Shown here piece by piece: positions 26,051-46,553 of a stretch of DNA of 64,000 bases. Made by a program: the position numbers and the translations under genes. Position 1 is the first letter of the stretch. Each line of letters starts with the position of its first letter. The DNA is taken from the NCBI RefSeq assembly GCF_013409305.1, contig NZ_JACBZJ010000001.1:310001-374000 (forward strand), written 5' to 3'. Under the pieces are notes generated by a model, which saw nothing but the letters and a program-made list of their open reading frames with translations, was not told where the DNA came from and did no database searches. This DNA comes from Cellulomonas soli. Lineage in GTDB: Bacteria; Actinomycetota; Actinomycetes; Actinomycetales; Cellulomonadaceae.

Positions 26051-27367
26051 ATGAGCCAGGCGTTGGATGCTCGACGCGCGCAGATCCTCGCGTCGGTCAG
26101 GGAGTACGCGGAGGAGTCTCTCGCGGCTCGCGAGTTCGTGGCCGGCGAGTCCACGGTGCCGGTCTCGGGCAAGGTCCTGGACGCAGCCGACATGGTCGCG
26201 CTGGTCGACTCCTCGCTCGACGGCTGGCTGACGGCGGGCCGGTTCACGACCGAGTTCCAGGACACCCTCGCCGACTACGTGGGCACGCGAGCGGCCTCGT
26301 TCGTCAACTCTGGCTCGTCGGCCAACCTCTGCGCGCTCTCCGCGCTGACGAGCCCGAAGCTCGGCAAGCGGCGCCTCGTGCCCGGTGACGAGGTCGTCAC
26401 CGTCGCGGCGGGCTTCCCGACCACGCTCAACCCGATCATCCAGAACGGACTGACCCCCGTCTTCGTCGACGTCGAGCTCGGCACCTACGACGCCATCGGC
26501 GACCAGCTCCGCGAGGCCATCGGGCCCAAGACGCGAGCGATCATGATGGCCCACACGCTGGGCAACCCGTTCGACCTGGACCTCGTGCAGGAGCTGTGCA
26601 AGGAGCACAAGCTCTGGCTCGTGGAGGACTCGTGCGACGCCCTCGGCTCGACCTACCGGGGCCAGCGGACGGGCAGCTTCGGCGACACGGCGACGGTCTC
26701 GTTCTACCCGGCCCACCACATCACGACCGGTGAGGGTGGCGCCGTCTTCTCGAAGCACCCCCTGGTGACGCGTCAGGTCGAGTCGTTCCGCGACTGGGGT
26801 CGCGACTGCTACTGCGAGACCGGCAAGGACGACACCTGCGGCAAGCGCTTCGAGTGGAGCCTGGGCGACCTGCCCGTGGGGTACGACCACAAGTACACGT
26901 ACAGCCACATCGGGTACAACCTCAAGGGCACGGACATGCAGGCCGCTCTCGGCCTGAGCCAGCTCACGAAGCTGGACCACTTCGTCGCCCGGCGCAAGGA
27001 GAACTTCAACTACCTCTACGAGCGCCTGCGCGACGTCGAGGGCCTCATCCTGCCCGTGGCCACACCCCACTCCGACCCCGCGTGGTTCGGCTTCCCGATC
27101 ACCCTGGCGGACGACCTCAACGTCAACCGCGAGGACCTCATGCGGCACCTGGAGTCGCGCAAGGTCGGCACGCGCCTGATCTTCGCCGGCAACCTGCTGC
27201 GCCAGCCCGCCTACCGTGGCCTCGACTGCCGCATCGTGGGTGACCTGCGGAACTCCGACACGGTCATGAACCGCTCGTTCTGGCTCGGCGTGTACCCGGG
27301 CTTGACGAACGACATGCTCGACTACGCCGCCGACAGCCTCATCGAGTTCGTCCGCGGCGGACGCTGA
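26051..27367 (+). CDS. rfbH: CDP-6-deoxy-4-hexulose 3-dehydrase (E1, RfbH/AscC type)
   Basis: A 438-residue PMP-dependent, iron-sulfur enzyme. It dehydrates CDP-4-keto-6-deoxyglucose at C3, the key step to 3,6-dideoxyhexoses. Three marks identify it. [12 protein letters not shown] has His222 where aminotransferases carry the PLP lysine. Cys195, Cys253, Cys255 and Cys263 reproduce the exact C-x57-C-x1-C-x7-C [2Fe-2S] pattern of E1. [13 protein letters not shown] and the overall length also match. E1 needs a reductase partner for turnover; the ferredoxin reductase and ferredoxin two and three genes downstream are the candidates, since no E3-type fusion protein is seen. It is the first gene of an eight-gene operon. 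Confidence 0.96.
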
Positions 27368-28416
27368 TGCACTACCTCGTCACCGGTCACACCGGGTTCA
27401 AGGGCGCCTGGTTGACGTCGCTGCTCCTCGCGCAGGGGCACCGCGTCTCCGGTCTGGCTCTCGACCCGACGGCGGGGTCCCTCTACGTGCAGGCGGGGCT
27501 CGGCGCCTCGCTCGATCACGACCTACGGGTGGACATCCGCGATGCCGAGGCAACTGCCCGGGCGGTGACGGAGGTCGGCCCGGACGTGGTGCTCCACCTC
27601 GCGGCGCAGCCGCTGGTGCGCGAGTCCTACCGGGACCCGCGCACCACCCACGAGACGAACGTGCTCGGCACGTTCAACGTCCTCGAGGCCGTGCGCTCGA
27701 CCCCGTCGGTGCAGGCGCAGGTCATCGTGACGACCGACAAGGTCTACCGGAACGTGCGGCAGATCTGGGGGTACCGCGAGGACGACGCCCTGGGCGGCGT
27801 GGATCCGTACTCCGCCTCCAAGGCGGCCGCCGACCTCCTGACGCAGTCCTGGATCGCCAGCTCGGGGAGCACCGTTCCCACGGCCATCGCCCGCGCCGGC
27901 AACGTCGTCGGCGGCGGGGACGTGTGCGCCGAGCGGCTCATGGTCGACCTCGTCGCAGCGTTCTCCGCGGGGCGCAGCGTGCGACTGCGCTACCCCGACG
28001 CGGTCCGACCGTGGCAGCACGTGCTGGACTGCCTGAACGGCTACCTCGTGCTCGCGGACGAGCTGCTCGCCGGCCGCCAGGCCGGTGAGGCGTTCAACTT
28101 CGGACCGGGATCCGAGTCGTTCGTGCGGGTCGGCGACCTCGCCACGCGTGTGGCCGACCTGTGGGGCGCAGGGGCGTCGATCGAGCTCGACGAGGACCCG
28201 CAGCCTCACGAGGCCGACCTGCTCGCGCTCGACGCGCGCAAGGCGGAGCTGCTGCTGAGATGGCGTGACCTGCTCTCCTTCGAGGAGACCCTGGCGTGGA
28301 CCGTCAGCTGGGAGAAGGCCGTCCGCTCGGGAGCTGACGCCGCCGAGGTGACCGCGGACCAGATCCGCGAGTTCCTCGCGCGGCGCCCGACGGCGGCAGC
28401 AGGGTCCGCAGCATGA
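27367..28416 (+). CDS. rfbG: CDP-glucose 4,6-dehydratase
   Basis: A 349-residue extended SDR. TGHTGFKGAWLTSLLL (NAD-binding loop) and TTDKVYRN are the signatures that separate CDP-glucose 4,6-dehydratase from its dTDP and GDP relatives. DPYSASKAAAD holds the Tyr/Lys pair, and RPWQHVLDCLNGYL is also typical. It turns CDP-glucose into CDP-4-keto-6-deoxyglucose, the substrate of RfbH. CDP-glucose would come from RfbF, encoded at 42.5 kb in the facing operon. The ATG shares one base with the rfbH stop. The C-terminal 30 residues are Ala-rich and variable. Confidence 0.95.
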   Translation: MHYLVTGHTGFKGAWLTSLLLAQGHRVSGLALDPTAGSLYVQAGLGASLDHDLRVDIRDAEATARAVTEVGPDVVLHLAAQPLVRESYRDPRTTHETNVLGTFNVLEAVRSTPSVQAQVIVTTDKVYRNVRQIWGYREDDALGGVDPYSASKAAADLLTQSWIASSGSTVPTAIARAGNVVGGGDVCAERLMVDLVAAFSAGRSVRLRYPDAVRPWQHVLDCLNGYLVLADELLAGRQAGEAFNFGPGSESFVRVGDLATRVADLWGAGASIELDEDPQPHEADLLALDARKAELLLRWRDLLSFEETLAWTVSWEKAVRSGADAAEVTADQIREFLARRPTAAAGSAA

Positions 28417-31799: not shown

Positions 31800-32809
31800 G
31801 CACCCAACCAGGGTCACCCGCGGACGAGACGGCCGGACCGGCCGAGGTCAGCGTGGTGATCCCCGTCTACCGGGGCGCCACCACCCTGCCCGCGCTCGTC
31901 GCCGAGATGGCGGCGCTGACCGGGAGCACCGCTAGCCCGGACGGCAACAGCTTCCGGATCCGCGAGCTGGTGCTGGTGTGGGACCACGGGCCCGACGAGA
32001 GCGACCGGGTGATCGCCGAGCTGACGGAGACCTACGACTGGGTCCGTGCGGTGTGGCTGTCCCGGAACTTCGGGCAGCACCCCGCGACGATCGCGGGGCT
32101 CGCAGCGACGACCAGCGAGTGGGTCGTCACCATGGACGAGGACGGCCAGCACGACCCGCAGGACATCGGCCGACTCATCGACACCGCGCTGCGCGAGGGC
32201 GTCGAGCTCGTCTATGCCGACCCGACGAACCTGCCTCCGCACTCGGTGGTCCGCAACCTGGGGTCGCGACTGGCGAAGGGCGTCGTGCTGCGGGCTCTGG
32301 TCGGGACGACCCCGACCCCCTTCCACAGCTTCAGGCTGCTGCACGGCGAGCACGCGCGCGCCGTCGCCGCCTACTGCGGGCCGGGTGTCTTCCTCGACAT
32401 CGCCCTGACGTGGGTCGTCGGGCGATCGGTGCAGTGCCCGGTGACCATGCGCTCCGAGGGCCGTGCCGCGACGTCGTACAACATGCGCCGCCTGGTCTCG
32501 CACTTCTGGCGGCTGGTGCTCTCCAGCGGCAACCGTCCGTTGAGGGTCATGTCGGCGGTCGGCGTGGCTACCGCGGTCCTCGGTCTCCTGCTCGCCGTCG
32601 TGCTGATCGCGCAGCGCCTGTTCGGCGGGATCGACGTTCAGGGGTGGACCTCGGTGATCGTCGCCGTCCTCGTGCTCGGCGGGCTCATCCTGACGTCCCT
32701 CGGCGTCATCGCCGAGTACGTCGGCCTCGCTGCCAGCATGTCGATGGGGCGCCCCCTCTTCGTCGCCGTCTCGGCTCCGGACAGCGCTCGCCGTCGGCAG
32801 CCCGCATAG
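31796..32809 (+). CDS. GtrB/ArnC-like polyprenyl-phosphate glycosyltransferase (GT2)
   Basis: A 337-residue protein. The GT-A domain has VSVVIPVYRGATTLPALV, WDHGPDESD, WLSRNFGQHPATIAGLA and VVTMDEDGQHDPQDI, the D-x-D-type metal site of the DPM1/GtrB group. Two membrane helices close the protein (VGVATAVLGLLLAVVLI and IVAVLVLGGLILTSLGVIA). Enzymes of this type move a sugar from a nucleotide donor to undecaprenyl phosphate. With the GtrA gene directly upstream it forms a lipid-linked sugar supply pair. A CDP-linked sugar would be an unusual donor for this family, so its substrate is open. Confidence 0.88.
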   Translation: MSTQPGSPADETAGPAEVSVVIPVYRGATTLPALVAEMAALTGSTASPDGNSFRIRELVLVWDHGPDESDRVIAELTETYDWVRAVWLSRNFGQHPATIAGLAATTSEWVVTMDEDGQHDPQDIGRLIDTALREGVELVYADPTNLPPHSVVRNLGSRLAKGVVLRALVGTTPTPFHSFRLLHGEHARAVAAYCGPGVFLDIALTWVVGRSVQCPVTMRSEGRAATSYNMRRLVSHFWRLVLSSGNRPLRVMSAVGVATAVLGLLLAVVLIAQRLFGGIDVQGWTSVIVAVLVLGGLILTSLGVIAEYVGLAASMSMGRPLFVAVSAPDSARRRQPA

Positions 32810-32811
32810 AC

Positions 32812-33771
32812 GTGACGGACGTCTGGGTGGTCGGCGCGGGTGGCCTGCTCGGCTCCGCGCTCGTCCGGCGCGCCCGTTCGACCGCACGGCTGTTCTCGTC
32901 GGCACGCATCCCGTGGGGCTCGCCGGAGGCGGTCGATGTGCTGCGCGCCGAGGCTGACCGCTTCCACCGGCAGCGGGCCGACGGCCATCCGTGGGTCGTC
33001 GTCTGGGCGGCCGGGGCCGCCGTGATCGCCTCGACTCCGGATCAGCTCGAGCAGGAGCAGCAGGTGCTGCTCGAGTTCGCAGAGGCACTTGCCCGGCGTG
33101 GCGAGCCCCACGGCTGCCTGCTCTTCGCCTCCTCGGCGAGCGTCTACGGCACGAGCCGCGCGGTCGCCTCCGACGAGCTCAGCCCGGTTGCACCGCTGAG
33201 CGGGTACGCGCGTGCCAAGCTCGCCCAGGAGGACGCGTTGCGCGCGATCCTTGCCGGTCGGGTCCCGCTCGCGACCGCACGACTGGCAACCCTGTACGGG
33301 CCCGGCCAGGACGTCACGAAGGGGCAGGGCCTGATCTCGTCGATGTGCCACGAGGCCCTCACGCGGCGCACCGTCTCGATCTTCGTGCCGATGGACACCA
33401 CGCGCGACTACCTCTATACCGACGACGCGGCGACGCGCTGTCTCCATGTCGCGCACACGTGCCTGGCACGTGCGGAGGACGTCACACGCGTCGTGGCGTC
33501 CGGAAGGCCCACCACCATCGGGGAGATCGCCCGGACCGTGCAGGCCGTCGCGCATCGGCGGTCACCGTTGTTGCAGGTCGTCGCCACGGGTTCTGCCCAT
33601 GCCCGCCACGTGGCGCTCAGGACGACCGACCGCTCGCTCGCCGCGCTGCCCACCACCCCGTTGCCGAACGGGGTCGCCGCCGTCTACCGCGACCTGGTGG
33701 GTCGATACCAGCGGGCGTCGACCGCGGGCCCGATGTCGCCGCGCACGCTCAGGTCAGACTCTCGGCGCTGA
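32812..33771 (+). CDS. NAD-dependent epimerase/reductase (extended SDR)
   Basis: A 319-residue SDR. VWVVGAGGLLGSALVRRA is the NAD site; FASSASVYGTSR and YARAKLAQED carry the Ser/Tyr/Lys residues. RDYLYTDDAATRCLHVA is typical of NDP-sugar epimerases and 4-reductases. As the last gene of the rfbH operon it may reduce or epimerise the CDP-4-keto-3,6-dideoxyhexose, or a C-branched derivative of it. It does not show features that single out abequose, paratose or tyvelose enzymes. The GTG starts 2 bases after the upstream stop. The last 23 bases overlap the end of the convergent gene at 33,749. Confidence 0.8.
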   Translation: MTDVWVVGAGGLLGSALVRRARSTARLFSSARIPWGSPEAVDVLRAEADRFHRQRADGHPWVVVWAAGAAVIASTPDQLEQEQQVLLEFAEALARRGEPHGCLLFASSASVYGTSRAVASDELSPVAPLSGYARAKLAQEDALRAILAGRVPLATARLATLYGPGQDVTKGQGLISSMCHEALTRRTVSIFVPMDTTRDYLYTDDAATRCLHVAHTCLARAEDVTRVVASGRPTTIGEIARTVQAVAHRRSPLLQVVATGSAHARHVALRTTDRSLAALPTTPLPNGVAAVYRDLVGRYQRASTAGPMSPRTLRSDSRR

Positions 33772-35038
33772 CTGCGGCAAGGTTGCCCGCCAGCGTCAGA
33801 GCCACGAGCAGTCCGACGAGGGCACCGCTGAGGAGCCGCCAGGCCCGCGCTCTCGTGCTCGGCACGCGAGCGTCGAGGGCCCTCCAGACGGCACCACCTG
33901 CCAGGGCGAGCCCGACCTGGCCGTACACGACAGGCAGATACCCCTGTCCGAGCTCGACGGACTGCTGCCACCGCAGGGTCATCCCGACGAGCACGGACGA
34001 GGACACCCACATCCAGATCCCGAGCACCACCACCGTCCACGCACCGCCACGAGGGACGGCACCGCCCGGGGCGCGTCGCCCTCTCCCGGCTACGAGGTAC
34101 ACGCAGACAGCGGCGGGCACGCCCGCGAGCAGGGTCGTCACGGCCAGCGCACCGACCGTGATCGGCGGCACACCGTCGGCGTGCAGCCACCACTGGGAGA
34201 GCGGGAGCGCTGCCACCATCTGCCGAGCGGTGGTCCTGAGGACGTCGCCGGGCACGAGCGCCACCTGGTAGGCAGGTGCGACACCCACCATCCTGGAGCG
34301 GAGGAACAGCACCCAGGCCGCCTGGAGCACCGCCGGGACGACGAACGCGAGGGCACGCCTCCACCGGCGCGTGAGCACGATCACGAGCAGCACGATCGGC
34401 GGTACGAAGAGGATGACCGTCTCGTAGGTCAGCAGCGCACCGGAGTAGAGCAGGGCCGCGCCGAGCGCCGCCCACCATCGGCCCGACCGCAGCACCAGGA
34501 CCACGGCCGCGAGCGTCGCCGCGGTCGTCAAGGTGAGCAGACCGCTGAACGCCGTGTACGCGTCCGCCCAGACGCGAATCTGCACGAGCCCGAGCAGGAG
34601 GACGGCCGTCACGACTCCCCCGGACCAGGCACGGGACGCGCGGCCGACGAGCAGAGCGGCGGTGAGCAGCGCGAGCGCGAGGGTCGCCACCAGGACCAGC
34701 TTGTAGGCGGCGTGCGTGTCGGCCACGTAGAAGACGGACAGCGTCCAGCTCACGGAGCCGGGGAAGAACCGCCCTTGATGCTCCATCCAGTCGGTCGTGT
34801 TGAACACGATCGCGTGCCACAGCGTCCAGTGGACGCTGGCGAGGTTCTCGTGGACCTGGGAGTTCACGACATCGTCGCCGCGATAGGGGGTGCTGGCGAT
34901 GACCGCTCCGAAGGCCGCCACGAGCCAACCCACGAGGCCCACGACGACCGCCGCCGACACGGGTGCCGGATCGGCGAGGTGGCCGTGCCGTGCGGGCCGG
35001 GCCTCCGGGTCGGCTTGCACGTCCGTCAGCGTGCTCAC
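33749..35038 (-). CDS. Polytopic membrane protein, GT-C-like
   Basis: About 429 residues with 10-11 membrane helices. After the first helix comes STPYRGDDVVNSQVH; a DD pair at this place is typical of GT-C glycosyltransferases. WMEHQGRFFPG follows in the same loop. Middle helices alternate with short Arg-rich loops (VLTRRWRRALAF). It is the last gene of the minus-strand operon, which also encodes GtrA (40,962) and GtrB-like GT2 (41,474), so it may be the outer-face transferase of that module. GTG 35038 overlaps the NUDIX gene stop (GTGA); an upstream in-frame start would lie inside the NUDIX gene. Confidence 0.7.
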   Translation of the reverse strand: MSTLTDVQADPEARPARHGHLADPAPVSAAVVVGLVGWLVAAFGAVIASTPYRGDDVVNSQVHENLASVHWTLWHAIVFNTTDWMEHQGRFFPGSVSWTLSVFYVADTHAAYKLVLVATLALALLTAALLVGRASRAWSGGVVTAVLLLGLVQIRVWADAYTAFSGLLTLTTAATLAAVVLVLRSGRWWAALGAALLYSGALLTYETVILFVPPIVLLVIVLTRRWRRALAFVVPAVLQAAWVLFLRSRMVGVAPAYQVALVPGDVLRTTARQMVAALPLSQWWLHADGVPPITVGALAVTTLLAGVPAAVCVYLVAGRGRRAPGGAVPRGGAWTVVVLGIWMWVSSSVLVGMTLRWQQSVELGQGYLPVVYGQVGLALAGGAVWRALDARVPSTRARAWRLLSGALVGLLVALTLAGNLAAVSAESLT

Positions 35039-35691
35039 GTCGCAGGCTCCGTCGGCAGCTTTCGGGCAAGCCACGGGGCGTCCGCCGCACGCAACGACTC
35101 CGTGTCAGTTCCCGCCACGGCCGCGGCAAGCAGCCCTGCGACCGTGATGCCGTTCTCCAACGAGCCGTCGAGGCACCAGCGCACAGCCTCCTGGAGCGGC
35201 ACCCAGCGCCGCTCCATCTCGGCTTCCTCGTCGAAACGGGCGAACTCCTCGCCTTCGCCGACGGGCACCAGCCCTGTGGCGAGCAGCACCCGGATGGTCT
35301 CGTCGGCCATCCCCGGCGAGGTGAGCAGGTCGACGAGCGTGTGCCACACGGACGCACGCACCCCGCCCTCCTCGTAGAGCTCCCTGCGCGCGGCGTCCGT
35401 GGGTGTCTCGGTCGTCGAGTCGAGCAGACCAGCCGGGATCTCCCACAGGCGCCGTCCGACCGGGTGCCGGTACTGGCGCACCAGGAGGACCCGGCCGTCG
35501 TCGTCGAGCGCGACCACGCCGACCGCGCCGGGGAGCTGGACGACGTCCCGCTGCGAGACGGAGCCGCCCGGCATCTCGACCAGGTCGGACCTGACGGAGG
35601 CCACACGACCCTGGAAGACGTCCCTGCTCTCCACGACCGCGTACCCGTGGCCGGCCGGCACCTCGGGAGTCGGTTGCGCGTCGGGGCTCAT
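35035..35691 (-). CDS. NUDIX hydrolase, ADP-ribose pyrophosphatase-like
   Basis: A 218-residue protein. The NUDIX box reads AGLLDSTTE, then seven residues, then RRELYEEGG, and is complete with its catalytic glutamates. LLVRQYRHPVGRRLWEIPAG before the box is typical of ADP-ribose/NDP-sugar pyrophosphatases. It hydrolyses nucleoside diphosphates linked to another moiety. Standalone ADP-ribose pyrophosphatases are housekeeping genes in actinomycetes, so its place deep in a sugar operon with 4-base overlaps on both sides is notable. It could remove unwanted NDP-sugars, or its presence may only reflect operon history. The ATG is in an ATGA overlap. Confidence 0.88.
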   Translation of the reverse strand: MSPDAQPTPEVPAGHGYAVVESRDVFQGRVASVRSDLVEMPGGSVSQRDVVQLPGAVGVVALDDDGRVLLVRQYRHPVGRRLWEIPAGLLDSTTETPTDAARRELYEEGGVRASVWHTLVDLLTSPGMADETIRVLLATGLVPVGEGEEFARFDEEAEMERRWVPLQEAVRWCLDGSLENGITVAGLLAAAVAGTDTESLRAADAPWLARKLPTEPAT

Positions 35692-36638
35692 CCCGGCACG
35701 CGCCCGTCCAGCCACCGCGCGGTCTCCCGCACGAGCTCCGGGAGTGCCCGGAGTCCCAGTCCGGCCTCCCGTGCCAGCTCTGCCATCATCGTGCCGTCCC
35801 CCACGTAGCTGTTCTCCTCCGCGGCCGGGTCCCATGTGCGCTCGGCCTCGTCGGTGCGGCCGTGCACGGAGGCGACGACCCTCGCCAGTTCCCCGACCTC
35901 GATCGGAGCACCCCCGGAGTCGAACACGACCGAACGCCCGCGCACGCTCGCCCAGAGGCACAGCGCGACGACCTCGTCCACGCCGCAGTACGTGCGCACC
36001 ACCGGACCGGTCGCGCTCACCTGCAACGGCCGGCCACCGGCAGCCATGCCGATGAGGCTGCCGAGGGCGTACTTCTCCGGCTTGGTCATGCGTGGTCCGG
36101 CGACGCTGAACACGCGAGGTACGACGTACGTCGCCCCCACGTCCTCGCATGCCCCGGCGAATGCGAGCTCGTCCACGCGCTTGAGGGCGCCGTACGGGTC
36201 CGCGTCGACATCGGCCACGAACCGCGGTCCGGCGCCGTAGACCGCCCCGGACGACGAGACCACGACTCCCCTGGGGCGATGTGCCGCCACCGCGTCGAGC
36301 ACGGTCGCGGAGATGGCGAGGTTGCGGCGCACGTACGCGTCGACACCGACCTCGGCCACCTTGTCCCGGGTGAGGTACGCGAAGTGGAGCAGCAGGGTCG
36401 GCGAGGGCACCCGCCCGGGGAGCTCGGCGAGAGGCAGGACCTCCACCTGACGCCCATCGGCGACGGTCACGACCCGGTGGCTGCTGGCGTACGCCTGGAC
36501 CCGCTCGGGCGCCTCCGTCCCGAGCGCCCCGTAGAGCAGGTCGAGCGCAGTGGCCCCGAACCAGCCCGTCGCGCCGGTCACAGCCACGCGGTCGTCGCCG
36601 GCCGCGAGCAGGCTCGCGACCAGCTCCGCCGGTGTCAC
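35688..36638 (-). CDS. NAD-dependent epimerase/reductase (extended SDR)
   Basis: A 316-residue [21 protein letters not shown] binds NAD(P). [13 protein letters not shown] and [14 protein letters not shown] hold the catalytic Ser, Tyr and Lys. [19 protein letters not shown] and [16 protein letters not shown] follow. It likely reduces a keto group or inverts a centre on a nucleotide sugar made by the neighbouring enzymes. It is distinct from the SDR at 32,812. In the yersiniose pathway a reductase follows the thiamine-diphosphate enzyme; this gene or the 32,812 gene could play that part, but the sequence does not prove it. The GTG overlaps the previous stop. Confidence 0.8.
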
Positions 36639-37438
36639 GCCCGCTGGCTGAGCAGCTGCCAGCGGCTCTCGAGCATCTCGATGCGCTTGGAGTCCTCGCG
36701 GTGGATCGTCCCGTAGTACTCGCGCTTGTTCAGGAGCCAGAGGAGCTCGAAGTGAACCGCGTTGAGCAGCCCGGGCTTGACCTCGTCGGTCTCGGCAGCG
36801 GCACCGTGGAAGACGACCTTGCGCGTCTCGAAGCGGGTCAGGTGGACCTCGCGGATGCGCTTGATGACCGGCAGCGAGTCGATCGACACCGCACCACCGA
36901 CGACGAGGTCGAGGCCCTTGGCCTTCGCCAGCTCGGCGACGTTGAGGACGTACTCCGTGATCTTCTCGGAGTTGATGTCGTCCCGGCCCAGACCGAGGCT
37001 GCCCGCGAAGTCGACGCGACCGAACACGATGCCGTCGACACCGGGCGTGCCGGCCGCCAGGGTCGCGACCTCCTCGCGGTGCTCGTAGCAGGTGATGGTC
37101 TCCATGTTGAACAGGAAGTCCGTGTCCTCGCGCTCCTCGGCGTTGTAGACCTGGTCCTTCGCGGCGATGTACTTCGAGAGGGCGTACGGCGTCTCGACCA
37201 TCGGCGCGACGATGTAGCGGACGCCGATCTGCTTGGACTCCAGCAGGTCACGGATCGCCTCGCACCCACCGATCTTCACGGTGAGCGGCAGACCCGCGGC
37301 ATGGGCGATCTCGACGAGGCGCAGGAGCTCGTCCATACGGGTGCCCTCGGCCTCGAACTCCGCCTTCACAGCGGCGTAGCCGAACTCCTCCTTGCCTCGG
37401 CGGAGGATCTCCGTCATCTGGCGTTCGGTCTTGTTCAT
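36635..37438 (-). CDS. HpcH/HpaI aldolase/citrate lyase-family enzyme
   Basis: A 267-residue TIM-barrel protein. [30 protein letters not shown] (metal-binding Glu) and [19 protein letters not shown] (metal-binding Asp) match HpcH/HpaI class II aldolases and citrate-lyase beta-like proteins. These make or break C-C bonds between pyruvate or acetyl units and aldehydes or keto acids. It lies between a thiamine-diphosphate enzyme and an SDR, with 4-base overlaps, so it is probably part of the sugar pathway rather than catabolism. Its substrate is unknown. ATG 37438 begins [15 protein letters not shown]; in-frame codons further upstream lie inside the neighbouring gene. Confidence 0.85.
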
Positions 37439-39231
37439 CGTGTGAGCTCCTTCTGCTCGGCGGTGAGGCGGCCGAGGACGCGACGCGCCACGTCCTCGGG
37501 GAGGTCCGGCGACATCAGGTGCAGCGGGTTGGACTCCATGCTGCCAGTCGCCGTGACTCGCGAGGTGATCTTCGGGAAGTACGTCTGCTCGGGGTCGATC
37601 GGGACGACGAAGCACGCCGGCCCCGGGGCGTCGAAAAGCTCACGGGCCTCGGGCGCATCCAGGCCGCGCTGGTCGAGGTCGGCGACCGGGATCCCGTAGG
37701 CACGGAAGAGCAGTTGCCAGTCGGGGAAGCCGAGCCCCGTGCGGATGTCGCAGCCGAGGTACGCCCCACCGAAGTACCCGCGCTGGGTCATCCGGATGGA
37801 CGCGTAGCCCTCGTTGCTGAAGAGGAACAGCTTGATCGGCAGGTCGTTGACCGCGACCGTGGCGAGCTCCTGCGAGTTCTGCATGAACCCGCCGTCCCCT
37901 TCGAAGAGCACGGTCCGTCGGCCGGGAGCCGCCAGCGCGGCTCCGATCGCACCCGACAGGCCGTACCCCATGCTGGCCAGGCCGTGGTCGCTGATGACCG
38001 TCTGACCCAGCTTCTGGTCGAACGCCTGCAGCGTCACGGTGAATGCGCCCCCGCTGCTGCACGGGATCACGACATCCGAGGGCGTGCACACGCGCGAGAC
38101 GTCGCTCACGAACTGGTACGGGTCCAGGTAACCCTCGGCCGTGGTGTTCACGTCCTCGATGACGGGCAGGAGCGCGCGAACCGCTTGGCACTCCTCGAGC
38201 CAGTCGCCCCAGGTCGGCAGGTCCGCGTCGAGCACCTCGACGAGCGCGGCGTCGGCGTCGGCGTGCCACGGGATGTCGACCCGCGGGTGCCCCTTCGTGA
38301 GCTCGGTCTCGTCGATGTCGACCTGCACGACGGTCGCCAGCGGGGCGAACTGCTGCCAGTTGAACCCTGTCTGCTGGAGCCCGAGCCTGGTGCCGAGGGC
38401 GAGGACGAGGTCAGACTGCTGGATGAGCACGTTGGCGGCGCGCTGACCCCACGTGTTCGGTCGACCGGCGTACACGACATCGTCGGCCCCGAGCCGGTCC
38501 GCACCGTTCCACGTCGTCATGACCGGGAGCGACAGCTCCCGGAGCCGAGGCAGCGCGGCCGCGGCGGCCGCACGGCTCACCCCACCGCCGAGCAGGAGCA
38601 CGGGACGCTGCGCCGCGCGGAGCGCATCGACCACCTCCACGGCACGGCTCTCGCCCGCGCGAGCCGGGAAAACCCTCTCCGCGACGCCGTCGTCGAGCGA
38701 GGCAGCGTCGACGGGGGCGCCTTGCGCGTCGAGGCAGATCTCGAGGAACACAGGACCAGGCCGCCCTGTGCTGCCCCGCTGGACCAGATCGGTGAACGTG
38801 CGTCGGCTGATCGGCCGCTCGATGCGCTCCGAGACCACGGCCACAGGCGCGGACATCGCCACACCGTCGATCTCCTGGATGCCGCGCTGCCGCAGCGTGT
38901 CGCCGGCGAGATCGGTGGACTTGACCTGCCCGCCGATGACCAGCAGCTCGCGGCTCTCGAGGTACGCGCCCGCCATGGCCGTGAGCAGGTTCGTCAGACC
39001 GGGCCCGGCGGTCACGAGCGCGAAGGCCCGCTCGTCGCTGCCCGTCGCACGGGCCTGCTCGTTGAAGTACTCGGTCGCGATCCCTGCCGCCACCTCGTGC
39101 ACCACGGGGACGCACGTCATGGTCTGGCGGGCCCCGTCCAGCAGGTGCATCGAGTTGCCACCTGCGACGAAGAAGCAGTGCGTGTACCCGAGTTCTCCCA
39201 GCCAGCCCATCATCAGGTCGCTGTACTTCAC
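37435..39231 (-). CDS. Thiamine-diphosphate enzyme, acetolactate-synthase-like
   Basis: A 598-residue three-domain ThDP enzyme. Glu46 (in [10 protein letters not shown]) is the cofactor-activating glutamate. A central domain has [13 protein letters not shown]. The ThDP/metal site begins at Gly445-Asp446-Gly447 ([18 protein letters not shown]) with Asn473 28 residues later. It differs from biosynthetic acetolactate synthase in having no neighbouring small subunit and in its operon. In Yersinia, YerE of this superfamily adds a two-carbon unit from pyruvate to CDP-4-keto-3,6-dideoxyglucose; the nearby rfbF, rfbG and rfbH make that role plausible here. The alternative is another acyloin- or keto-acid-forming step. 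The GTG overlaps the cyclase gene stop. Confidence 0.88.
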
Positions 39232-40292
39232 GCGGTCGGTCCCTTCAGGCTCATGATCGTCTGCTCGGTCAGTGCGAGGACCAGGTCCCAGTCCTGGGCG
39301 GTGCTGCCCGTCCGGACCTCCTTCACGCCGCCGCCCTCGGCGGGCAGGATCAGGTGGAAGCCGTCGGCACCGTGCTTCTTGTCCGCGCGGAACGCGCGCT
39401 CGTACCGCTCAGGATCGAACCGGTCCAGCGCCTCACCGACGCCGTCCGCCGAGGCGAGCAGCGCACGGCAGTGCGCCGCGAGCTGCTCGACCTGCGGGCC
39501 GGTGCCGGCGGACGGATGCTGCGTCGCGCACAGCACCCCCACCGCGACGCCGAGGCCGTGGCTGATCTCGTGGTCGACGGCCACCTCGAGGGCGTGTCCG
39601 AAGGTGTGCCCGAAGTTCAGCAGCCGGCGCTCCTTGCGATCGTGCTCGTCGATCTCCACGAACCACCGCTTGGAGCGGAGCACGAGGTCGATCAGCGCCT
39701 CGGGCTCGCTCCCGAAGCGCTCGTACGCGGCCAGGTAACCCTCGAACGCCTCCGGTCCACGGCAGAACGAGATCTTGGCGGCCTCGCTGAAGCCGGCCGC
39801 GCGCGCGGTCGGTGAGAGCGTGGTCAGGAACTCGGGGTCGACGACCACCGCGGTCGGCGGGTAGATCCCTCCGACGAGGTTCTTCACGTCCCCCACGTTG
39901 ATCGAGCTCTTGCCGCCGATGCAGGAGTCGGCCATCGCCATGAGGGTCGTCGGCACGTAGCTCCACGGCAGGCCACGCATGTAGACGTCGGTCACGAAGG
40001 TCGCCAGGTCCTGGATCACGCCGCCGCCGACCGCGACCACGTGGTCACCGCGGCGCACACCCGCGTCCCGCATCCTCAGGATCAGGTTCTCGCAGCCTGC
40101 CAGGGTCTTGGTCTCCTCACCGGCCGGCACCGCGAGGACCGGCACGCCCGTGGCCGGGACCCGGTCGACGAGCGCCTCGTCCACGACCACGAGCGCTGCC
40201 GACGCCACGGCGTCGCGGAACTGACCCGCGCCGATACGGACGTCGTAGCTCCCGGTCGAGGAGCGGACGGAGAACTCAGAGGATGCGGCCAA
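39228..40292 (-). CDS. Dehydroquinate-synthase-like sugar cyclase
   Basis: A 354-residue member of the sugar phosphate cyclase family. VVAVGGGVIQDLATFV (NAD site), YVPTTLMAMADSCIGGKSS, KNLVGGIYPP, FSEAAK and LLNFGHTFGHALE (metal-binding His) are conserved with AroB. The motif after the second metal site is SHGLGVAVGV rather than the HGEAVA form usual in AroB, and no shikimate genes are near. It therefore probably cyclises another substrate, as valiolone and deoxyinosose synthases do. Setting within a CDP-sugar operon suggests a carbocyclic or branched sugar unit. TTG 40292 is the first start in the family-like N terminus and overlaps the SDR gene by 17 bases. Confidence 0.85.
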   Translation of the reverse strand: MAASSEFSVRSSTGSYDVRIGAGQFRDAVASAALVVVDEALVDRVPATGVPVLAVPAGEETKTLAGCENLILRMRDAGVRRGDHVVAVGGGVIQDLATFVTDVYMRGLPWSYVPTTLMAMADSCIGGKSSINVGDVKNLVGGIYPPTAVVVDPEFLTTLSPTARAAGFSEAAKISFCRGPEAFEGYLAAYERFGSEPEALIDLVLRSKRWFVEIDEHDRKERRLLNFGHTFGHALEVAVDHEISHGLGVAVGVLCATQHPSAGTGPQVEQLAAHCRALLASADGVGEALDRFDPERYERAFRADKKHGADGFHLILPAEGGGVKEVRTGSTAQDWDLVLALTEQTIMSLKGPTA

Positions 40293-40965
40293 CGGTGAAC
40301 CCCAGATCGACGGCGATGGACTGTCCGGTCACACCGGTGTTACGGGCGGAGGCGAGATACGCGACCACGCTGGCGACGTCCTCCGGCTGGATCATCCTTC
40401 CAGACCCCGTCGCACTCTCGAACCGGGCGATCTGCTCGTCGGAGAGCATGCTGCGGGTCATCGGCGTGTCCACGACCCCCGGCAGCACGCCGTTGACCAG
40501 CACACCGAGCGGAGCGAGGTCGAGGGCGGCGGCGCGGACAAGCCCGCCGACAGCCGCCTTGGTGACCGTGTACGAGAACTTGCCCGGACGGGCCACCAGC
40601 TCCCAGATCGAGCTGACGACCACCACGCGGGCGTGCGGGGCGAGACGCTCGGCTGCGAGCAGGTCACGCAGCTGAGCGGCGATGAGCTCGACGTTCGTCT
40701 CGAGCATCGAGCGCAGCTCGTCGTCCTCGTGCGAGCCGACGGAGTCGTTGGCGTTGACGCCGTGGGCCCAGACGACGGCGTCCAGCAGCGGCAGGTCGGT
40801 GAGTGCACCCGGGGCGCCCAGGTCGACGACGTCCTCGGCACCGGGACGGCTCGCACGCGACGTGCGCAGGACCCGGGCCCCGTCGTCGGCCAGGGCGGCC
40901 GAGACCGCCGAGCCGAGCGCGCCGAAGCCTCCGACGACGAGTGCGGTCCGCCTCGACGAGCTCAC
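40276..40965 (-). CDS. Short-chain dehydrogenase/reductase
   Basis: A 229-residue classical SDR. VVGGFGALGSAVSAALADD is the NAD(P) site with the GxxxGxG pattern. VVVVSSIWELVARPGKF gives the catalytic Ser, and YTVTKAAVGG the Tyr and Lys. NGVLPGVVDTPMT and GQSIAVDLGFTVGRIL complete the fold. It should oxidise or reduce a hydroxyl/keto group, probably on the product of the adjacent cyclase, with which it overlaps by 17 bases. The substrate cannot be predicted. The GTG start lies within the stop of the upstream gtrA gene. Confidence 0.88.
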   Translation of the reverse strand: MSSSRRTALVVGGFGALGSAVSAALADDGARVLRTSRASRPGAEDVVDLGAPGALTDLPLLDAVVWAHGVNANDSVGSHEDDELRSMLETNVELIAAQLRDLLAAERLAPHARVVVVSSIWELVARPGKFSYTVTKAAVGGLVRAAALDLAPLGVLVNGVLPGVVDTPMTRSMLSDEQIARFESATGSGRMIQPEDVASVVAYLASARNTGVTGQSIAVDLGFTVGRIL

Positions 40966-41462
40966 GAGTCCCCGCCAGGTGCGGGCGACCCCGGCACGTC
41001 GGTCGCGACGGCCGGCCGACGGAACGTGAAGCTGCGGTGCGCCACGAAGCTGCCCAGCGCCGTGCCCACCATCACCATCGCCTGCGAGAGCAGCACCGGC
41101 AGGTGCGCGACCTCGACCAGGAGGGGCAGCACGACCAGGTTGATCGCGAAGCTCACGGCGTACACGGAGGAGAACCGGACCAGCTCACGCCACCACCGCC
41201 CGCGCACCCGGAACACGAGCCAGCGCTGCAGCACGTACGCCTCGAGGATGCTGACGACCTGGGCGACCGTGAGGATCACCAGGTAGTGCACGACATGGCC
41301 CAGCGTCAGCTGCAGGAGCGCGAAGAGGCCGAAGCCGAACGCCGAGTTGACCACCCCGACGGCGACGAACCGCACGAGTTGGCTCTCCAGGAGCCGACCG
41401 AGCGGGTTCGACCTGGGCGGCCCGTCGTCCTGCGTCGCCGAGGAGGTTGCACGCTCGGTCAT
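40962..41462 (-). CDS. GtrA family membrane protein
   Basis: A 166-residue four-helix protein: VRFVAVGVVNSAFGFGLFAL, VVSILEAYVLQRWLVF, LVRFSSVYAVSFAINLVVLP and GSFVAHRSFTFRRP. It is the proposed flippase for a lipid-linked sugar made by the GtrB-like enzyme encoded 11 bases upstream. Together with the membrane protein at 33,749 it may form a second three-component module. Start ATG 41462 is followed by a polar 30-residue N terminus. It belongs to the same family as the 31,290 protein but is clearly diverged from it. Confidence 0.9.
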   Translation of the reverse strand: MTERATSSATQDDGPPRSNPLGRLLESQLVRFVAVGVVNSAFGFGLFALLQLTLGHVVHYLVILTVAQVVSILEAYVLQRWLVFRVRGRWWRELVRFSSVYAVSFAINLVVLPLLVEVAHLPVLLSQAMVMVGTALGSFVAHRSFTFRRPAVATDVPGSPAPGGDS

Positions 41463-41473
41463 GGCCACGCCGA

Positions 41474-42475
41474 TCAGAGACCGACCCGGTGCCGGACCAC
41501 GAAGTTCGGGCGCTGCTTGACCTCTTCGTAGATCAGCCCGATGTACTCGGCGACGACCCCGATCATCGAGAACAGGATGCCGAAGAGCAGCAGCATGAAC
41601 CCGAGCAGCGAGCCGTACCCGGCGAACGGAACGCCCGCGACGACGAAGCGGATCGCGAACACGAGCAGGAGCAGCGCCGAGACGGCCGACACCGCCAGGC
41701 CTGTGACCGTGATGAGGCGCAGCGGCACGTAGGAGTGGGCGAAGATGCCCTTGAACGCCAGGTCGAGCACCTTCAGCGAGTGCGCCTTGGATTCTCCCCC
41801 GAAGCGAGGCGGACGCTCGTGGGTGATGCCCACGGACCGGTAGCCGGCCCAGGCGAACAGGCCCCGGACGAACCGGTTGCGCTCCTGCATCGTGTTGATG
41901 GTCTCGTAGACGCCCCGGTCGACCAGGCGGAAGTCGCTGGCGTTGCGCGGGATGGCGCCGTCGGTGAGCTTGCCGGCGAGCCAGTAGAAGGCCTTGCTGT
42001 TGAACGTCCGCAGCGGGCCGGTGCCCTGCCGTTCGGTGACGACCATGTAGATGTTCTCGTAGCCCTCCTCCCACTTGCGGAGGAACTGCGGGATCAGCTC
42101 GGGCGGGTCCTGCAGGTCGGCCGTCATCACGACGGCGGCATCGCCGGTCGCGTGCGCGAGGCCGGCAGTCAGGCCGCCGTCCATGCGGAAGTTGCGGGCC
42201 AGCTGGATGATCTTGAAGCGGGGGTCCGCCTCGTGGATCACCAGGAGCTTGTCGTAGGTGTCGTCCGACGAGCCGTTCTCGACGATGAGCACCTCGAAGT
42301 CGTAACCCGGCTCCGACTCCATGACGCCCTGCAGGCGTCGTGCGAGCTCGTCGACGCAGTCGGACTCGTTGTAGGCGGGGATCACCACCGAGATGAGCTT
42401 GCGGGGCGTCGCCTCACCGGCCGCGTCCTGCGAGACCTCCGTCGTGGGCACGGACTCGATCGTCGTGTTCGTCAC
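41474..42475 (-). CDS. GtrB/DPM-like polyprenyl-phosphate glycosyltransferase (GT2)
   Basis: A 333-residue protein. ISVVIPAYNESDCVDELAR, IVENGSSDDTYDKL, LARNFRMDGGLTAGL and VVMTADLQDPPELIP (catalytic DLQDP) identify the DPM1/GtrB group. Two C-terminal helices follow (TVTGLAVSAVSALLLLVFAI and GFMLLLFGILFSMIGVVA). The ending YEEVKQRPNFVVRH is typical of GtrB proteins. It makes a polyprenyl-phosphate sugar for flipping by the GtrA partner. GTG 42475 is chosen because it overlaps the rfbF stop and has GAAGG upstream; a longer start at 42,511 would lie inside rfbF. Confidence 0.9.
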   Translation of the reverse strand: MTNTTIESVPTTEVSQDAAGEATPRKLISVVIPAYNESDCVDELARRLQGVMESEPGYDFEVLIVENGSSDDTYDKLLVIHEADPRFKIIQLARNFRMDGGLTAGLAHATGDAAVVMTADLQDPPELIPQFLRKWEEGYENIYMVVTERQGTGPLRTFNSKAFYWLAGKLTDGAIPRNASDFRLVDRGVYETINTMQERNRFVRGLFAWAGYRSVGITHERPPRFGGESKAHSLKVLDLAFKGIFAHSYVPLRLITVTGLAVSAVSALLLLVFAIRFVVAGVPFAGYGSLLGFMLLLFGILFSMIGVVAEYIGLIYEEVKQRPNFVVRHRVGL

Positions 42476-43251
42476 TTCCAGACCTTCCACGGCGCAGTCC
42501 CGCCGTCCCACATCTCGTTGAGGAGCACCGACTCGCGGTACGTGTCCATCGGCTGCCAGAACCCGGCATGACGGTAGGCCGCGAGCTGCCGCTCCGCGGC
42601 CAGCGCCGCCAGGGGCTCGTGCTCGAGCATCACCGCGTCGCTGTCGCGCAGGTACTCGAAGACCGCCGGCTCGAAGACGAAGAAGCCCGCCGAGACCCAG
42701 TCCTCCATCTGCGGCTTCTCGCGGAAGCGGGTCACCAGCGACTGCTCGTCCACGTCCACCAGGCCGAAGCGCGACAACGGGCGCACGGTCGTGATCGTGG
42801 ACTTCAGCCCGTGCGAGGCGTGGAACGCCTGGAGCGCGGTGATGTCGATGTCGGCCAGGCCGTCGCCGTAGGTGACCATGAACCGCTCGCCGCGCACGAA
42901 CGGCTCGATGCGCTCGACGCGACCCGCCGTCAGCGTGCCCTGACCGGTGTCGGCCACGGTCACCGTCCAGTCGCTCTCCAGGTGGTCTCCGTGGAACACC
43001 AGTTCGCTGTTCTGGCCGAGCGTGATCGTGAAGTCCTTGTTGTGGGCGGCGTAGTTGAGGAAGTACTCCTTGATCTGCTCGCCCTTGTACCCGGCGCAGA
43101 TCACGAAGTCGGTGACCCCGTGCGCGGCGAACGTCTTCATCAGGTGCCAGAGGACCGGCTTCCCGCCGATCTCGACCATGGGCTTGGGACGGAACTCCGT
43201 CTCCTCACGCATGCGCGTACCCAGACCACCCGCAAGCAGCACGGCTTTCAT
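42472..43251 (-). CDS. rfbF: Glucose-1-phosphate cytidylyltransferase
   Basis: A 259-residue nucleotidyltransferase of exact family length. KAVLLAGGLGTRMREET is the nucleotide-binding signature. EFRPKPMVEIGGKPVLWHLM and VICAGYKGEQIKEYFLNY are specific to CDP-glucose pyrophosphorylase. VTYGDGLADID holds the metal-binding Asp and FWQPMDTYRE lies near the end. It joins glucose-1-phosphate and CTP into CDP-glucose, the entry to CDP-3,6-dideoxyhexoses. RfbG and RfbH are encoded 15 kb away in the facing operon. It is the first gene of an 11-gene minus-strand chain with overlaps or very small gaps. The 124-base gap upstream should hold its promoter. Confidence 0.96.
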   Translation of the reverse strand: MKAVLLAGGLGTRMREETEFRPKPMVEIGGKPVLWHLMKTFAAHGVTDFVICAGYKGEQIKEYFLNYAAHNKDFTITLGQNSELVFHGDHLESDWTVTVADTGQGTLTAGRVERIEPFVRGERFMVTYGDGLADIDITALQAFHASHGLKSTITTVRPLSRFGLVDVDEQSLVTRFREKPQMEDWVSAGFFVFEPAVFEYLRDSDAVMLEHEPLAALAAERQLAAYRHAGFWQPMDTYRESVLLNEMWDGGTAPWKVWK

Positions 43252-43375: not shown

Positions 43376-45322
43376 TCAGCCGAAGCTGAGGCTGCGCGCC
43401 AGGTACTCGTCCGAGCGGATGATCACGGCCCTGAGCGCGTCGTCCCCGTTCGCCATCCAGTACGGCGCCCAGGTCGCCAGGCCCGTCGGGTCGGCGCTGC
43501 GGTCCAGGAAGATGCGGTACGTCTCGTGGATGCGCAGCTCGGCGCTCTCGCGCGACCGCCAGACGCCGTACGGAGCGATCGCGAGGCCGGAACGCCCGAC
43601 CGCGCCGATCCACCACTCCACCTCGGACGGCGTGGCCTCGCGCCCCAGGATGTCGCGGTACAGCCGCTGGACGTACGCGCGGTCGTTCCCGCCTGCCTGT
43701 GCGTAGTACTCGGGACTGGCGATGAGCTGCCCGCGCAGGTCCTCCACCCGGAACACGCCGTTCATGATGGCCTGGACCTGCACCTCGAACCCGGCACCGT
43801 CAGGAGCCCGGCCGAGGATCTGGGCGTAGGCCTCCGTCACCTTGCGCTCGACGTACTCGCGGCTGCGGGCGATGCCGTCACCCAACGTCGAGGCCGGCTG
43901 CCCGGCCATGATCAGTGCCGACCAGGTCGCCAGACCCGTCGGGTCCGGGCCGCGGTTGAGCATGTCGTGGTAGAGCGAACGGACCAGCGGCTCCGAGAAC
44001 GCGATCGCGCGCGCCCGGTCGCGGATCCACTGCAGCTGTGCGTACCCGGCGTTGCCCGGGCATGCCGTGAACGCGGTGTCGCGGTGCGCGAAGACCACGG
44101 GCAGCCCGACGGTCGTCCCGGCGGCGAACCGGGAGTTCTCTCCACCGCCGGTCGTGTAGGACATGGTCCCCGCGGGGTTGCGGCCGTAGACGCCAAGTCG
44201 GTACCCGATGATCCGGGCCACCGACTCGCGCATCGCGTCGGACGGCGTCACGGTGGAGAAGTCCCCCAGCATGGACACGCCCACGGTCGCGGTGTTGAAC
44301 CCGCCGGCGTGCACGCCGATCACCGGCTGCGTGAGGCTGTTGGCGCGCCCCTCGTAGATGTTGCCCCACTTGTCGACGATGAAGTTGTAGCCGATGTCGC
44401 ACCAGTGTTGCGTGTTGATGTGGTACGCCTGGTCGTTGCGGATCTGCTGCATCGCCTGCGCCACGGTGCTGTAGTCGTTCGAGCCCGCCGTGTGGTGGAC
44501 GACCGCGCCGACGAGCGTCGAGGCGACGTCGGGGGCACAGGCCTGCGGCGCTGCGCTCCACTCGGCGCGCGAGATCACCCTGGGCGCGGCCAGCGCCGAC
44601 GAGACCTGCTTGAGCGAGGCGGTGGACACGACGGCATCGCCGCTCACGGTGGCGCCCGCCACGAGCCCGGAGATCGACGTCAGGCCGGAGGAGACGAGCG
44701 CCAGCCGGACGTCGGCGGCCGGGTCCGTGCCGGTCTCGGCGAACGCGAGCTGGACAGCATCGGACTCACCGACCCAGAGCGCGTCGGTCCCGCTCCTGGC
44801 CCCGTGGGCGGCATCGGCGCTCCCCGCGTCGGGCTGCTCCTCCGACACCTCGAGGTCGACCCAGTCGGTCCAGTCGCCGTCCGCGTCACGCGTGCGCACC
44901 TGGGGTGCGAGCTCGCCCAGGTCGACGTCCGCCGGCCAGCTGACACCGACGGTCTGGAACCCGTCGGTCTCCACGACCGCGCTCACGACCCTGTCCTGCG
45001 TGGCGGTGTCGACCACGAGCGTCTGGTCGTCGGTGACGACCCCCGCGGCCTCCGGCTCCGCCTCCAGCTGTGCCGTCGGCAGGTCGGTGGGCGCCGGCGA
45101 CTCGGGCGCTAGCTCGACCGGGATCTCCTGGACGGCGGTGTCCGGGTCGGTGGCGGGCTGCTCCGTCGAGGCAGCGGTACCGATCGCGAGGGTGCCGTCC
45201 GAACGGACGATCCCGTCGACGGCGGGAGCCTCGGCGGCGCTGCGCGCCGGCACCGAGGGGGCGCAGCCTGCGACGAGCGCGAGGACGAGCAACCCTCCCG
45301 CGTAGACGTGACGGACGACCAT
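43376..45322 (-). CDS. Lipoprotein peptidoglycan-recognition amidase with four DUF4214 repeats
   Basis: A 648-residue protein. The N terminus ends in the lipobox LVAGC, so it is probably a lipid-anchored exoprotein. A 200-residue Asp/Glu/Ala-rich region precedes an amidase-2/PGRP domain (about 240-435): ISRAEWSAAP, VVHHTAGSNDY, CDIGYNFIVDKWGNIYEGRA, then GHRD-like AHRDTAFTACPG with the zinc His and Cys. It should cleave or bind the N-acetylmuramoyl-L-Ala bond. Residues 446-648 are four DUF4214 units (LNRGPDPTGLATW, LGRAPDGAG, LGREATPSEVEWW, LDRSADPTGLATW), in the same order as in the SpoIID-like protein at 20.6 kb. GGGAG precedes the ATG. Its target polymer is unknown. Confidence 0.9.
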   Translation of the reverse strand: MVVRHVYAGGLLVLALVAGCAPSVPARSAAEAPAVDGIVRSDGTLAIGTAASTEQPATDPDTAVQEIPVELAPESPAPTDLPTAQLEAEPEAAGVVTDDQTLVVDTATQDRVVSAVVETDGFQTVGVSWPADVDLGELAPQVRTRDADGDWTDWVDLEVSEEQPDAGSADAAHGARSGTDALWVGESDAVQLAFAETGTDPAADVRLALVSSGLTSISGLVAGATVSGDAVVSTASLKQVSSALAAPRVISRAEWSAAPQACAPDVASTLVGAVVHHTAGSNDYSTVAQAMQQIRNDQAYHINTQHWCDIGYNFIVDKWGNIYEGRANSLTQPVIGVHAGGFNTATVGVSMLGDFSTVTPSDAMRESVARIIGYRLGVYGRNPAGTMSYTTGGGENSRFAAGTTVGLPVVFAHRDTAFTACPGNAGYAQLQWIRDRARAIAFSEPLVRSLYHDMLNRGPDPTGLATWSALIMAGQPASTLGDGIARSREYVERKVTEAYAQILGRAPDGAGFEVQVQAIMNGVFRVEDLRGQLIASPEYYAQAGGNDRAYVQRLYRDILGREATPSEVEWWIGAVGRSGLAIAPYGVWRSRESAELRIHETYRIFLDRSADPTGLATWAPYWMANGDDALRAVIIRSDEYLARSLSFG

Positions 45323-46553
<1,231 letters not shown>

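Follow-up and report, generated by a model that had tools for sequence, protein, structure and literature searches.

A conserved cassette linking an AroB-like enzyme to a YerE-like carboligase in Cellulomonas soli may build a long C4 branch on a CDP-3,6-dideoxyhexose

What sugar is made by an operon that places a dehydroquinate-synthase-like protein and an aldolase beside an enzyme of the kind that branches CDP-sugars? The question is raised by a nine-gene operon on the minus strand, running from position 43251 to 35035 of a 64,000-nucleotide stretch of Cellulomonas soli DNA (hereafter the window; positions 310001-374000 of the single contig that makes up the 4.26 Mb genome). In order of transcription it encodes RfbF, a GT2 glycosyltransferase, a GtrA-type membrane protein, a short-chain dehydrogenase/reductase (SDR), an AroB-like (3-dehydroquinate (DHQ) synthase-like) protein that we call AroBL, a thiamine diphosphate (ThDP)-dependent enzyme, an HpcH/HpaI-type aldolase (HpcH below), an epimerase-type protein and a NUDIX hydrolase. 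An earlier note on this DNA had proposed that the operon leads to an unusual C-branched or carbocyclic CDP-sugar; all the genes it named were found in place on the minus strand, although the GT2 and GtrA genes within the same range were missing from its list. Six of the eight junctions are 4-base overlaps, SDR and AroBL overlap by 17 bases, and a gap of 11 bases separates GT2 from GtrA. We propose, with about even confidence, that the operon makes a CDP-3,6-dideoxyhexose carrying a long polyhydroxyalkyl branch at C4, similar to caryophyllose, and that AroBL and SDR remove a phosphate from a chain that stays open.

The genes concerned are not peculiar to C. soli. A scan of 84,980 species (one genome each) for relatives of HpcH gave 329 places, the best 80 of which were kept and scored by tblastn for the window's genes. 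The ThDP gene was found in 72 of these HpcH-anchored loci, SDR and AroBL in 58 each, rfbH and the epimerase-type gene in 55 each, rfbG in 51, rfbF in 50, GT2 in 46 and GtrA in 25. Four window neighbours that do not belong to the cassette served as an internal control: the NUDIX, flavoprotein and ferredoxin genes turned up in two loci each and a second epimerase gene in none. The NUDIX hydrolase, which the earlier note had counted among the pathway enzymes, is thus present in the operon but lies outside the conserved core. All of rfbF, rfbG, rfbH, SDR, AroBL, ThDP and HpcH occur together in 22 of the 80 loci, including loci from Prochlorococcus, Synechococcus, Thermomonas, Thiomonas, Mycobacterium, Propionibacteriaceae and Oxalobacteraceae. 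Because the set recurs in several phyla, it is more than a chance grouping, and HpcH, SDR, AroBL and ThDP form a conserved cassette, which answers the earlier call for a search of conserved neighbourhoods. In all 58 AroBL loci (and in 9/9 of a second, replication set), the SDR gene is the immediate upstream neighbour of AroBL and shares its strand; it was found in none of the 22 loci without AroBL.

Cassette-type HpcH is scarce in most phyla: with the centre genomes counted in, it was found in 5 of 396 genomes sampled from Actinomycetota, 6 of 396 from Acidobacteriota and 4 of 388 from Pseudomonadota; Cyanobacteriota gave 38 of 377, almost all at 42-50% identity. Queries and thresholds were not uniform between these searches, and one of them listed 40 places, of which 9 were fetched. 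In a set of 20 genomes, AroBL was present in the fetched stretch in 14 and absent from it in the other six. Homologues of HpcH also occur in other settings: one on an Ilyobacter plasmid (36%) sits in a catabolic-looking region, and one on a plasmid of Novosphingobium humi (L003, 14097-16807; 55%) adjoins rfbF and rfbG, with neither ThDP nor AroBL in the 32.8 kb examined.

Sequence comparisons support AroBL as a specialised AroB homologue within the sugar phosphate cyclase superfamily, possibly with a new enzyme function. It retains the fold and catalytic residues of DHQ synthase (DHQS), which are common to much of the superfamily, and it scores 224.9 bits against the aroB equivalog TIGR01357, below the cut-off of 305; ten other AroBL, taken as matched stretches, score 217-248. 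A single branch with an SH-aLRT value of 99 parts 56 AroBL (the window's included, frames of 280 residues or fewer excluded) from 18 AroB, in a quick tree for which the program warned that long branches meet. Gln94 is a signature of the group, being found in 56/56 AroBL versus Gly or Thr in 18/18 AroB. A second DHQS gene lies elsewhere in the Cellulomonas genome; on these grounds we rejected AroBL as the housekeeping AroB, which disposes of the earlier note's concern that the cyclase might be just that, and the only one of the genome. It is barely conceivable that chance placed in the cluster, as AroBL, a housekeeping DHQS that is redundant or relaxed: most named records among its database matches, which include C. 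soli and C. xiejunii, are labelled 3-dehydroquinate synthase, but the separate clade, Gln94, the constant SDR partner and the second DHQS gene all speak against such an accident.

Among NCBIfam families, TIGR04425 (AroB-related putative sugar phosphate phospholyase, cyclizing) scores highest for the window's AroBL and for 10/10 others. With 251.9 bits for the window's protein and 260-300 for the others, which were scored on their matched stretches, two being clearly incomplete, all 11 sequences fall below the curated cut-off of 400, and membership of this family was rejected; neither its name nor its number was found in the literature searched. EEVS and DDGS are weaker sequence matches to AroBL than most AroB are. 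Positions 222, 226 and 305, which have roles in DHQS-type enzymes, are Arg, Asn and Lys in 56/56 AroBL and Gly, Glu and Asn in the deoxyinosose synthase (DOIS) 2d2x, the one DOIS sequence compared, and AroBL was for this reason rejected as a DOIS. Since these residues are kept in AroBL and absent from this DOIS, a substrate bearing a carboxylate would fit. In Trinickia caryophylli, the source of caryophyllose and caryose, no AroBL was found among the 120 listed of 3273 matches. AroBL also has relatives in Bradyrhizobium sp. CCGUVB4N and B. canariense (P0295, P0302), which are a possible lead to the genes for the bicyclic sugar bradyrhizose, with no link claimed; the paper on the 11-gene cluster for that sugar lists a putative glucose 4,6-dehydratase in it and calls the genes for the synthesis unknown (PMC4743980).

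The best PDB match of the window's ThDP enzyme is 8rph, the YerE-like JanthE, at 285 bits, versus 195.6 for the next, an acetolactate synthase. It also scores far below the listed acetolactate synthase family cut-offs, and three other ThDP-type matches, the best 31% identical, lie elsewhere in the genome; an acetolactate synthase identity, which the earlier note had said would count against its proposal, was rejected on these grounds. By its PDB match scores, the enzyme stands closer to the YerE-like lyases than to acetolactate synthases, in line with the likeness to YerE that the earlier note had seen. Another ThDP subfamily, with 33-37% identity to the window's enzyme, occurs in HpcH loci with AroBL, with a HAD-family protein, or with neither where the contig is cut (L010, L039, L047, L049, L055, L067, L071, L079, L080 and L084); its member in L049, the one tried, matches JanthE at 438.7 bits, much closer than the window's ThDP enzyme does.

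In HpcH, E113, R141 and D143 are invariant in 32/32 aligned sequences, and by comparison with HpaI motifs E113 and D143 are putative metal ligands. Because aldolases of the HpcH kind make 2-oxo acids of the type that YerE-like ThDP enzymes take, we read HpcH as the probable maker of the donor for the ThDP enzyme. As described in a review of these enzymes, YerE adds pyruvate-derived acetaldehyde to CDP-3,6-dideoxy-4-keto-glucose, JanthE accepts long 2-oxo acids, and ErwE prefers 4-hydroxy-2-oxo acids, MMAR_2332 being similar (PMC12247030). Among 198 Mycobacterium genomes, HpcH is found in three and a close ThDP enzyme (79-100% identity) in five, three more genomes with ThDP at 37-38% not being counted as close. 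Three of the five carry HpcH, SDR and AroBL; the other two have no HpcH match, and in its place a NeuB-family synthase and a methyltransferase adjoin the YerE-like ThDP gene (L096, 12625-16653; L098, 12078-16781). NeuB-family enzymes make 2-oxo-3-deoxy acids, and the fact that one of them stands in for HpcH supports HpcH as a donor maker. From their gene order, L096 and L098 appear to resemble MMAR_2330-2336 of M. marinum. Gene-for-gene synthesis of caryophyllose in the M. marinum manner fails as an account of our operon, since L096 and L098, which share that layout, have NeuB instead of HpcH and AroBL. In another mycobacterial locus (L101, 5714-7494), the ThDP gene matches as two overlapping pieces, as if frameshifted.

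What AroBL might contribute to such a donor is indicated by the loci that lack it. Because DHQS-type enzymes remove a terminal phosphate, a phosphatase was expected in loci without SDR and AroBL, a prediction set down after the absence of both had been seen and before the genes of those loci were annotated. A Pfam scan of the substitute candidates found the HAD_2 family in 9/10, the tenth (L045) having no Pfam match. With a model built from nine HADs of AroBL-less loci, a HAD was detected in 12 of the 22 loci without AroBL (10 of them within 3 kb of HpcH or ThDP) versus 1 of the 58 with it (L050; Fisher p 1.2e-7, kinship ignored); L010 carries a NagD-type HAD by Pfam that the model misses. In Acidobacteria the same slot is filled in either way, the order being HpcH-HAD-ThDP in L064 versus HpcH-SDR-AroBL-ThDP in L076 and L083.

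Kinship was taken into account with an HpcH tree of 81 rows, 61 with AroBL, 13 with HAD, one with neither (L045) and six uncounted. Loci cut by a contig end (L021, L026, L034, L055, L057 and L062) are outside this count and inside the 22 loci without AroBL; L028 and L031, whose AroBL lies past the flank on their own contig, were scored as AroBL loci, and L010 as HAD. Supported branches force at least nine changes between AroBL and HAD. Across 200 random choices of nine independent pairs, HAD ran opposite to AroBL in 7-9 pairs and the same way in none (sign test p 0.004-0.016). The replication set comprised 20 stretches, 16 of them new; the others (L120, L121, L128 and L129) are contigs of the first set and were not counted. 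Within 3 kb, a same-strand HAD adjoins HpcH in six of the seven AroBL-less loci (not in L138) versus none of the nine with AroBL. Six cyanobacterial loci of this set, with HpcH 47-50% identical to the window's, divide into three with SDR-AroBL (L133, L136, L137) and three with HAD (L134, L135, L139). That a HAD phosphatase swaps for SDR and AroBL suggests that the task of AroBL is to remove the phosphate of an aldolase-made chain.

The alternation would also fit if AroBL and SDR acted before the aldolase, converting an aldose phosphate to an omega-deoxy aldose that HpcH would then join to pyruvate, with HAD giving the non-deoxy aldose instead; NeuB-family synthases, which take the place of HpcH in mycobacteria, often use unphosphorylated aldoses. 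We consider this order rather unlikely, since the DHQS residues that AroBL has kept and DOIS lacks suit a 2-oxo acid better than a plain aldose phosphate. It is very unlikely that the ThDP enzyme uses pyruvate to make a two-carbon branch of the yersiniose type while a quinate-like cyclitol acid for decorating the polymer comes, independently, from HpcH, AroBL and SDR. The replacement of a cyclase by a HAD phosphatase would be unexpected under such a division of labour, yet it is seen, and no acyl-activating or acyl-transfer gene is among the nine of the operon (an acyltransferase gene lies outside it at 24797-25942); on the other side, AroBL is DHQS-like and YerE itself uses pyruvate (PMC12247030).

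The pathway that we favour, with phosphate removal after the aldolase, would begin with the supply of CDP-4-keto-3,6-dideoxyglucose by RfbF, RfbG and RfbH, all three of which score above their NCBIfam cut-offs; the facing operon, which carries rfbG and rfbH, had already been assigned this role in the earlier note. HpcH would join pyruvate to an aldose phosphate, in the simplest case erythrose 4-phosphate, and the product would be a 2-oxo-3-deoxy-aldonate that bears a phosphate at its end. AroBL would oxidise this chain, eliminate the phosphate and re-reduce it as DHQS does, halting before ring closure and leaving a deoxy (CH3) chain end beside a ketone that SDR would reduce. The ThDP enzyme would then decarboxylate the 2-oxo acid and add the remainder to the C4 ketone of CDP-4-keto-3,6-dideoxyglucose, the epimerase-type protein would reduce the new branch ketone, and GT2 and GtrA would hand the completed sugar over from CDP to a lipid carrier. 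With a C4 aldose, the donor would be 3,7-dideoxy-2-oxo-heptonate and the branch a tetrahydroxyhexyl group as in caryophyllose, whose structure is given as 3,6-dideoxy-4-C-(1,3,4,5-tetrahydroxyhexyl)-hexopyranose, with a CH3-ended branch (PMC5706390). In the sister operons, a HAD phosphatase in place of AroBL and SDR would leave a terminal hydroxyl. The HpcH of the HAD-type Mycobacterium locus L042 is 81-82% identical to those of the AroBL-type loci L023, L025 and L028, versus 92-93% among the latter, with ThDP at 79-82% in both comparisons; the divergence of HpcH perhaps reflects a different aldose.

An open chain fits better than a closed ring because the epimerase-type gene is about as common with AroBL (41/58 loci) as without it (14/22). 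In 13 chosen pairs of HAD and AroBL loci, drawn from 10 HAD loci, the epimerases are at least 49% identical in six and 27-29% identical in three, the other four being unscored. Were AroBL to act after the ThDP enzyme, a branch from a C7 donor with its phosphate retained would resemble 3-deoxy-arabino-heptulosonate 7-phosphate, the sugar standing where the latter has its carboxylate, and would close to a C-linked cyclohexane polyol whose ring ketone SDR could reduce. Such closure would consume the branch ketone, yet the gene of its putative reductase is about as frequent with AroBL as without it; furthermore, R222 and N226, invariant in AroBL and absent from DOIS, whose substrate is carboxylate-free, point to a carboxylate still being present. 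We regard this order of events as possible though unlikely, and we also think it unlikely, a little more so, that AroBL closes a ring on the ThDP-attached branch to give a DHQ-like carbocycle, C-linked at C4 of the nucleotide sugar, so that a shikimate-type ring closure would take place on a CDP-sugar in bacteria from actinomycetes to Prochlorococcus. The evidence supports a pathway to a C4-branched CDP-3,6-dideoxyhexose that probably does go beyond yersiniose, as the earlier note had suggested; a carbocyclic or bicyclic sugar of the kind it had in mind may be formed, but we favour it less than the open chain, which both the HAD swap and the epimerase frequency fit.

Several points weigh against the open-chain pathway. 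Characterised members of the DHQS superfamily close a ring, closure after elimination being thought spontaneous, and to our knowledge a non-cyclising member would be new. No AroBL was found within the stretches examined of the two M. marinum-like NeuB loci, and a CH3-ended branch may therefore form without it. The Pfam score of HpcH is low (PF03328, 32.3 against a gathering threshold of 25). The HAD model, derived from AroBL-less loci, biases detection toward such loci; a plain motif-I search, free of this bias, gave 8/22 versus 2/58, a weaker result in the same direction. The HADs counted include distant or partial ones (L079, 3.1 kb off; L039, 7.9 kb off; L024, a 102-residue fragment at a contig end). 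In the replication set, one of the AroBL loci, L125, carries a weak HAD on the opposite strand at a distance of about 2 kb, which is contrary under the wording of the plan, no ThDP gene was detected in the AroBL-less loci L123 and L138, and HpcH identity to the window's is 41-50% in AroBL-less loci versus 48-64% in most AroBL loci. Finally, an epimerase orthologue at 49% or more was found in four of the seven scorable HAD loci, three having 27-29%, and L077 has none though its partner has one.

Table 1. Features of the two facing gene groups in the window, with the matches that identify them and their occurrence in the 80 related loci.
Feature	Coordinates	Strand	Evidence
rfbF, glucose-1-phosphate cytidylyltransferase (CDP-glucose maker)	42472..43251	-	TIGR02623 332.9 bits > cut-off 300.25; in 50/80 loci
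GT2, polyprenyl-phosphate-type glycosyltransferase	41474..42475	-	PF00535; best NCBIfam PgfS 227.9 bits < cut-off 500; in 46/80 loci
GtrA-type membrane protein	40962..41462	-	PF04138; in 25/80 loci
SDR reductase	40276..40965	-	PF13561; constant AroBL partner
AroBL, putative DHQS-fold sugar-phosphate lyase/cyclase, TTG start	39228..40292	-	DHQ_synthase PF01761 117.6 bits > cut-off 24.2
ThDP-dependent YerE-like carboligase	37435..39231	-	PF02776/PF00205/PF02775; in 72/80 loci
HpcH/HpaI-type aldolase	36635..37438	-	PF03328 32.3 bits > gathering cut-off 25
NAD-dependent epimerase/dehydratase-type protein, candidate branch-ketone reductase	35688..36638	-	PF01370 61.2 bits; in 55/80 loci
NUDIX hydrolase, accessory	35035..35691	-	PF00293 67.7 bits; in only 2/80 loci
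rfbH, CDP-4-keto-6-deoxyglucose 3-dehydrase (E1)	26051..27367	+	NF011936 695.6 bits > cut-off 423; in 55/80 loci
rfbG, CDP-glucose 4,6-dehydratase	27367..28416	+	TIGR02622 381.4 bits > cut-off 278.45; in 51/80 loci
Thioredoxin-reductase-like flavoprotein	28413-29453	+	PF07992; only 2/80 loci
Ferredoxin	29456-29800	+	Fer4 domains; FdxA_Actino 115.2, slightly < cut-off 125; only 2/80 loci

The plus strand reads rfbH, rfbG, flavoprotein, ferredoxin, a GT87-type membrane protein, GtrA, GT2 and another epimerase (Table 1). The flavoprotein and ferredoxin may be the electron donors to RfbH, whose usual reductase they apparently replace; L005 and L008 have the same pair close to the cassette. Since a GT87-type protein, GtrA, GT2 and an epimerase are encoded at 29848-33771 in the facing operon itself, it looks as if a second sugar were made from the same CDP intermediate. 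A gene at 43376-45322, between rfbF and a dTDP-glucose 4,6-dehydratase gene (45558-46553), encodes a protein of 648 residues that contains an amidase_2 domain and DUF4214.

For the synthesis of donors for longer C4-branched sugars, of the caryophyllose, erwiniose and gastriose kinds, the cassette offers a concrete candidate gene set that spans several phyla, Prochlorococcus and Synechococcus included. It also yields a falsifiable rule, namely that species with AroBL and SDR should differ from those with HAD in the end of the branch. The AroBL clade may perform partial DHQS chemistry outside aromatic synthesis, and it is tied to a ThDP subfamily that is valuable as a catalyst for tertiary alcohols. 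No paper naming this combination of genes was found in literature searches that were only partly aimed at it and for which subscription papers were mostly out of reach.

In comparison with known systems, AroBL shares its fold and catalytic residues with AroB and with the sugar phosphate cyclases DOIS, EEVS, DDGS and EboD, the last described earlier as a new clade in this superfamily (PMC5133447). It differs from AroB in its separate clade, its Gln94 signature and its score below the NCBIfam cut-off of AroB, and from TIGR04425, its best NCBIfam match, in reaching 252-300 bits against a cut-off of 400. The caryophyllose genes of M. marinum (MMAR_2331-2333) resemble our operon in that rfbF, GT2 and ThDP are adjacent, and from the published structure (PMC5706390) we derive that the C4 branch would need a donor like 3,7-dideoxy-2-oxo-heptonate; the mycobacterial layout that we relate to it by gene order differs in its NeuB-family synthase in place of HpcH and in lacking AroBL in the stretches examined. 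The term 3-dehydroquinate does not occur in the main text of the review of YerE, ErwE and JanthE (PMC12247030). On two features, the supply by RfbF, RfbG and RfbH and a YerE-like ThDP enzyme whose best solved relative is JanthE, the operon belongs to the YerE-like C4-branching group, from whose described members it differs in joining to them, in a conserved cassette, the HpcH aldolase, AroBL and SDR.

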